The notes below the pieces were generated by a model, which ran no database searches, had not been told where the DNA came from, and worked only from the letters and a program-made list of their open reading frames with translations. From Priestia megaterium (GTDB lineage: Bacteria; Bacillota; Bacilli; Bacillales; Bacillaceae_H): a stretch of DNA of 64,000 nucleotides. The position numbers and the translations under genes were made by a program. The stretch is from the NCBI RefSeq assembly GCF_009497655.1, contig NZ_CP023317.1:209501-273500 (forward strand). The letters run 5' to 3'. This document shows, piece after piece, positions 13,932-14,367 of the stretch (within the stretch, counting starts at the first letter, position 1; each line of letters begins with the position of its first letter).

Positions 13932-14043
13932 TTGACTCTATATATTATATATGGTAAATTATTAAATGTCGCTGATGAACAGCGCAGTTGAGAGAAACAT
14001 CTTAAAAAAAGATGTTGACATCAAAATAATAGAATGTTATACT
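13932..14043 (+). promoter_or_regulatory. Tandem rRNA operon promoters P1 and P2
   Basis: P1 has TTGACT (13932-13937), 17 bp, TAAATT (13955-13960). P2 has TTGACA (14015-14020), 17 bp, TATACT (14038-14043). Two tandem near-consensus promoters followed by the leader segment GAACTTTGAAAACTGAAC (about 14071-14088) are typical of Bacillus rrn operons. The control region therefore looks intact although the operon body is missing. Confidence 0.85.
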
Positions 14044-14143
14044 AATAAAGTTGCTTCAGAGCAACGGTTGAACTTTGAAAACTGAACAAAGCGACAAACG
14101 TCAACGTTAATTTTTTATTTTTTAAATGAGCAAGTCAAACATT

Positions 14144-14249
14144 TCTTCGGAGAGTTTGATCCTGGCTCAGGATGAACGCTGGCGGCGTGCCTAATACATG
14201 CAAGTCGAGCGAACTGATTAGAAGCTTGCTTCTATGACGTTAGCGGCGG
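14144..14249 (+). rRNA. Truncated 16S rRNA (5' end only)
   Basis: The sequence contains the conserved 16S start AGAGTTTGATCCTGGCTCAG (14151-14170) and continues through the first variable region to GCGGCGGA. At that point a normal 16S would continue with GGGTGAGTAACACG. Instead it joins directly to 5S sequence. Only about 106 nt of some 1550 remain, so no functional 16S can be made. Confidence 0.93.
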
Positions 14250-14327
14250 ACCGAACACGGAAGTTAAGCTCTTTAGCGCCAATGGTAGTTGGGACTTTGT
14301 CCCTGTGAGAGTAGGACGTTGCCAGGC
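14250..14327 (+). rRNA. Truncated 5S rRNA (3' part only)
   Basis: From CCGAACACGGAAG to GTTGCCAGGC this is the last two thirds of a Bacillus-type 5S rRNA. The first third, including the 5' strand of the closing helix, is missing. It is fused to the 16S 5' fragment; AC is shared at the joint, so the breakpoint is ambiguous by two bases. The rest of 16S, the spacers and all of 23S are absent. Confidence 0.93.
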
Positions 14328-14331
14328 CAAT

Positions 14332-14367
14332 AAAAAGACTAGTCATTCAATGACTAGTCTTTTTTGT
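14332..14367 (+). terminator. rRNA operon terminator
   Basis: A perfect palindrome with arms AAAAAGACTAGTCATT and AATGACTAGTCTTTTT, followed by more T residues, ends the truncated rRNA unit. Confidence 0.93.

Follow-up and report, generated by a model that had tools for sequence, protein, structure and literature searches.

Is the rRNA fragment that lies between a purine permease gene and a NETI protein gene in this Priestia megaterium chromosome a chimeric RNA gene, the remnant of a deletion, or a fault in the assembled sequence? The window analysed here is a stretch of 64,000 nt (C1:209501-273500). As deposited, it carries on its forward strand a unit running from promoters through a leader, a 16S piece and a 5S piece to a terminator, with a chimeric joint between the two rRNA pieces. 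A consensus scan placed two rrn-type promoter-like pairs, TTGACT and TAAATT separated by 17 nt at 13932..13960, and TTGACA and TATACT with the same spacing at 14015..14043, the latter with TG before its second hexamer. They are followed by a pre-16S leader (14044..14143), similar in this genome's 7 other copies with a visible leader, and by about 106-108 nt of the 16S rRNA 5′ end (14144..14251). The latter was located from a motif position and an Rfam offset: GAGTTTGATCC of 16S begins at 14152, the position of the GAGTTTG motif, and in the intact copy L031 Rfam places the 16S start 8 nt upstream of that motif (4823 vs 4831). The 5S piece, the 3′ 76 nt of the gene (78 including a shared AC), begins with CGAACACGG at 14252 and occupies 14252..14327 as an exact match to intact loci. 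Its end, GCCAGGC at 14327, lies directly 5′ of operon-specific downstream sequences, and a terminator-like hairpin was found by scan at 14332..14364. The layout given by the sequence-only reading, tandem promoters and a leader followed by about 106 nt of 16S joined to the last 78 nt of 5S and a terminator, is thus borne out. So is its statement that the joint has AC alone in common, since in intact copies the 16S goes on as GGGTGAG and the 5S has CCATAC before it; the position of the joint is ambiguous across this AC (14249..14252).

The flanking ORFs, both on the forward strand, were assigned by Pfam. The upstream one (12411..13769) belongs to the purine permease family PF00860 (Xan_ur_permease, E 3.1e-45), with no match in an NCBIfam search of the same ORF, and the downstream one (14493..14693) belongs to the NETI proteins (PF14044, E 2.9e-30). 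The families are those found by the searches, and the gene names pbuG and yebG are those of the sequence-only reading. The purE gene is also among the flanking genes. Three purine riboswitch aptamers were observed in the window within about 4.5 kb (10358-10459, 12210-12311 and 14778-14879), the last of them upstream of purE. At its gathering threshold, Rfam returned no match to 16S, 23S or 5S in the 64-kb window, which by this measure contains no complete operon. The pieces that are present show no decay relative to intact operons: among nine further rrn loci examined, the 100 nt of 16S from GAGTTTG recur exactly in five (the 16S start being masked in three) and the 76 nt of 5S in six. Since they are exact copies of intact operons, nothing about them argues for age.

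Comparison with relatives changes the estimate of what is absent from this locus. It had been claimed that about 4.5 kb is missing, which is probably not the case: between the same flanks as the window stub (permease and NETI gene), relatives hold two or three operons over 9,913-14,973 nt. In G008, 14,953 nt separate the first 16S start (234340) from the last 5S motif (249293), and another 16S start follows the first at 5,048 nt. The corresponding span is 14,973 nt in G009, where the two visible 16S starts are 10,112 nt apart, and 9,913 nt in G001. These spans come close to the length of a single 4,853-nt operon to which one or two repeat units of roughly 5,050 nt are added, and by this arithmetic, the middles of the arrays being masked, the locus would hold three tandem operons in G008, three in G009 and two in G001. 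In the G008 array, only about 170 nt separate the first 5S from the next 16S (L034:8217-8389), and no tRNA was found there. The two sides of the stub can be matched to the two ends of such an array. Its upstream flank is ~95% identical to the flank of the first operon in G001 and G008, which assigns the leader to the first array operon, and its terminator is by sequence that of the last array operon, being the same as the one after the last array 5S in G001 and G008 and to the one after 5S on G003:C6. G003 and G007, two relatives with draft assemblies, have the flanks of the window locus at contig ends.

The same genome contains a second 16S-5S chimera at C1:29867-29996 (L030:3868-3996), between bofA and gin/csfB, the name csfB being one that we presume for this neighbor. 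Its 5S piece begins at the same base as that of the window stub, while its 16S piece is 47 nt shorter. The overlap at its joint is 0 nt, versus 2 nt (AC) at the window joint, and overlaps this short easily arise by chance. The second locus is also a repeat in relatives: G001, G008 and G009 each have two 5S copies there, about 5.8-5.9 kb apart, and the flanks are about 11 kb apart, compared with about 4.9 kb for single operons. A nine-tRNA cluster lies between the two operons in G001 and G009; in G008 the sequence is masked past the first tRNA. Hence the relatives examined in which each chimera locus lies on one contig, three in number, have tandem arrays at both. At the other rrn loci of these three genomes no further closely spaced pairs of 16S or 5S motifs were found, a count in which masked or mismatched motifs are invisible.

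The chimeric form is rare. A strict joint pattern had two matches in the source genome and none in 9 other genomes of the genus, and a loose pattern, applied to the order, was positive in one of 397 genomes, again the source genome with two matches. Both patterns were validated on the two joints and require exact matches, so that they miss joints whose 16S piece is much longer or whose 5S sequence differs, and the counts are no census of broken operons. The same patterns had no match in a wider collection of genome contigs, from which the source genome or a very near one is possibly absent. This distribution bears on the idea that the rrn promoters serve a small RNA or regulatory element under selection. 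The predicted 304-nt transcript does fold better than 100 of 100 shuffles (z -2.41), but the fold contains leader, 16S and terminator hairpins that are found in ordinary rrn operons too. Moreover, by exact patterns the element occurs in 0 of the 9 other genomes of the genus and in 0 of the 396 others of the order, and the two copies in the source genome differ by those 47 nt of 16S. As the fold signal includes ordinary rrn hairpins and no other genome searched has the element, we rejected this idea and give it next to no credence, and we do not count the folding as a sign of function. The related claim of the sequence-only reading, that a strong promoter pair drives a chimeric RNA, found no support beyond the deposited sequence.

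Apart from the two stubs, the source genome has eight chromosomal rrn loci and one on contig C3. By Rfam, 16S, 23S and 5S are all full in four of the eight (L031, L035, L038 and L040). Masking covers part of the remaining four and of the C3 copy, which show rRNA parts wherever they can be read. The only gutted loci are therefore the two array loci, the other eight chromosomal loci keeping their rRNA genes wherever they are unmasked. The chance that two random failures among ten chromosomal loci hit exactly the two arrays is 1 in 45, a figure that depends on loci matched across genomes by order and spacing and not in every case by flanks; in this pairing one of the eight loci has no counterpart by either motif in G008, and three loci of the source genome correspond to two in G009. 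A PacBio chromosome of P. aryabhattai is described as having 13 each of 16S, 23S and 5S genes (PMC9637944), compared with the eight chromosomal operon loci and two stubs of the source genome. A 10 kb stretch of the 76.5 kb contig C3 matches Priestia plasmids only (37 of 37 records). The same contig carries an rrn operon (L032:1-5594) and a tRNA cluster, the latter continuing across the contig ends with tRNA matches at 2-596 and 75592-76489.

Taken together, we consider it very likely that the 16S-5S stub is an assembly (finishing) artefact at unresolved tandem rrn arrays and not a new RNA gene. It is the simplest account of a genome that has a joint at each of the two array loci, has none at any other locus as far as seen, and shows one 5S endpoint for both. 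The repeat at both chimera loci is longer in relatives than the single copies that were resolved, and the fault recurs at like places in the same genome and is absent, by exact patterns, from the other 396 genomes. Under this reading, the living strain would have about two or three complete 16S-23S-5S operons in tandem between the permease and NETI genes; the interval between bofA and gin/csfB would hold roughly two operons, together with a tRNA cluster. The single operons of 5 kb would have been resolved by the assembler, the arrays of 10-15 kb being too long to cross. The contigs on either side of each array would have kept a short overhang of the repeat, the 16S 5′ end on the left and the 5S 3′ end on the right, and these overhang-bearing contigs would then have been abutted end to end, giving both joints. 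Of the two possibilities offered earlier, a microhomology deletion or an assembly collapse, it is thus the collapse that is favoured, in the form of a collapsed tandem array, and the presence of a chimera at both array loci leaves the deletion less supported.

Comparable faults and comparable arrays have both been reported. Misassembled or collapsed repeats in published genomes are alike in the loss or wrong joining of repeats that exceed the read length. Misassembly near genomic islands, prophages and other repeats has been reported in a genome deposited as finished (PMC4134206), collapsed rDNA has been described (PMC6009695), and it has been pointed out that rRNA genes may be missing because of tandem rrn sets (PMC8156514). 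The clean base-to-base 16S-5S stub seen here is not among the forms described in the available portions of these three sources, and our literature search found no paper that we could connect with it. The Bacillus subtilis chromosome carries a two-unit and a three-unit tandem rrn set according to the last of these reports (PMC8156514), and G001, G008 and G009 are similar in carrying two-unit and two- or three-unit arrays at the affected loci. The source genome, as deposited, differs from the Bacillaceae with such arrays in having no complete operon at either locus.

A real illegitimate deletion would explain the same structure differently. End joining that needed little homology or none would have removed both arrays, sparing the outer promoters and terminator together with the 16S 5′ and 5S 3′ ends. 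The two promoter pairs would transcribe short 16S-5S RNAs at a high rate, and ribosome synthesis would be left to the plasmid operon and eight chromosomal loci. The sequence is clean across both joints, promoters, leader and terminator are in place, and the window joint has the 2-nt overlap (AC). Among rrn loci, deletion is stated to affect tandem arrays most readily (PMC8156514). Eight further chromosomal loci and a plasmid operon remain. The tRNAs of the second array are redundant: all nine anticodons occur in the L040 cluster of the source genome. For this reason we rejected the missing nine-tRNA cluster as proof of error, and viability does not decide between artefact and deletion. The deletion reading nevertheless requires two losses of about 10-15 kb, both at array loci and with an identical 5S endpoint, and no such product is found among the 396 other genomes of the order. 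Homologous recombination inside an array leaves one complete operon and not a stub. This exchange is the real change to be expected, and its product would have been a complete operon in place of what is seen. The stubs are, in addition, without decay. We regard a deletion as improbable. If it were true, the strain would be a natural experiment on how a fast-growing bacterium manages after losing both rrn arrays.

The ends of the pieces provide a further line of evidence on the artefact reading, with each end measured as the length common to the piece and the other visible copies in the same genome. Pieces left by a de Bruijn assembler end at a distance of k bases from the divergence of the copies, and 77 is a usual last k of SPAdes. 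A k set of 21, 33, 55 and 77 is reported in use (PMC6446218) and the k range of Unicycler has been described (PMC5481147). At the second chimera, the left piece extends 77 nt past the last private base relative to all 7 copies compared (three other leaders being masked), and the right piece has 96 nt in common with L029, 78 with L035, 77 with three copies and at most 76 with the rest. At the window stub, the right piece has 76 nt in common with seven copies up to the branch after GCCAGGC (77-78 counting AC) and 28-29 with three, and the left piece has 138-140 nt in common with its nearest copies (140 with three), 128 and 125 with two others, and 16 with L035. One k-mer size for all four ends was tried and rejected; it fits the left end of the second chimera and the right end of the window stub, fits the right end of the second chimera in part, and fails for the left end of the window stub. 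Since the left end of the window stub (138-140 nt) and the second-chimera right end (96 nt with L029) lie off k = 77, an extra extension step must be assumed. The resemblance of some stub piece ends to short-read contig ends, 76-77 nt from copy divergence, is suggestive only.

These distances also bear on a finishing error of another kind, in which a polymerase jumped from the 16S 5′ end to 5S during PCR/Sanger finishing and the short chimeric product was accepted as a gap closure. The two 16S endpoints flank the first large 16S hairpin, presumably helix 6, where polymerases may jump, and such a jump would account for joints with an overlap of 0-2 nt. It leaves the 76-77-nt distances unexplained, and we think it very improbable.

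Returning to the unresolved arrays, short-read drafts of relatives often, though not always, break in the stretches that hold the joints. The draft G003 supports the idea, with a distance of its own: of the eight 5S-side contigs among the matches listed, five have their start 126-127 nt ahead of the 5S branch and the others 88, 304 and 346 nt ahead of it. On the 16S side, with positions numbered from GAGTTTG, two of the eight contigs among the matches listed stop at 99, at most 1 base from the end of the 16S piece in the window stub, and the other six stop at 43, 73, 110, 116, 211 and 252; the G003 counts omit three 16S-side matches without a locus and, from nine 5S-side contigs, one without the motif used. 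The contigs listed for G004 break deeper inside the operon, ending at 16S 160-480 and starting 414-599 nt before the 5S branch. For G005, the 16S-side ends range from before 16S to 373, and one contig starts 99 nt before the 5S branch. For G006, four contigs end before 16S and two start 56 nt before the 5S branch. The 16S-side ends of these two drafts fall at 16S 14-67, with one at 373, or before 16S. That other drafts break elsewhere counts against the artefact reading, as does the failure of some piece ends to fit k = 77. So does the otherwise good finish of the source genome, which comprises 5.24 Mb in 3 contigs, with a completeness of 100 and a contamination of 0.42.

As an artefact, the stub concerns those who use this genome. 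Assuming that the strain resembles its relatives, the deposited sequence understates the rrn copy number by four or five chromosomal operons and lacks a nine-tRNA cluster. The 16S-5S stub is also open to being misread as a new RNA gene. An array in relatives, a stub in the genome at hand, a repeated 5S endpoint and distances like those of contig overhangs together give a recognition rule that can be used on other genomes. As a separate observation on the sequences 3′ of 5S, the terminators at L029:5709-5750 and L030:3997-4040 have a common stem and centres that are reverse complements of each other (TTTT vs AAAA), as if the hairpin had been inverted.
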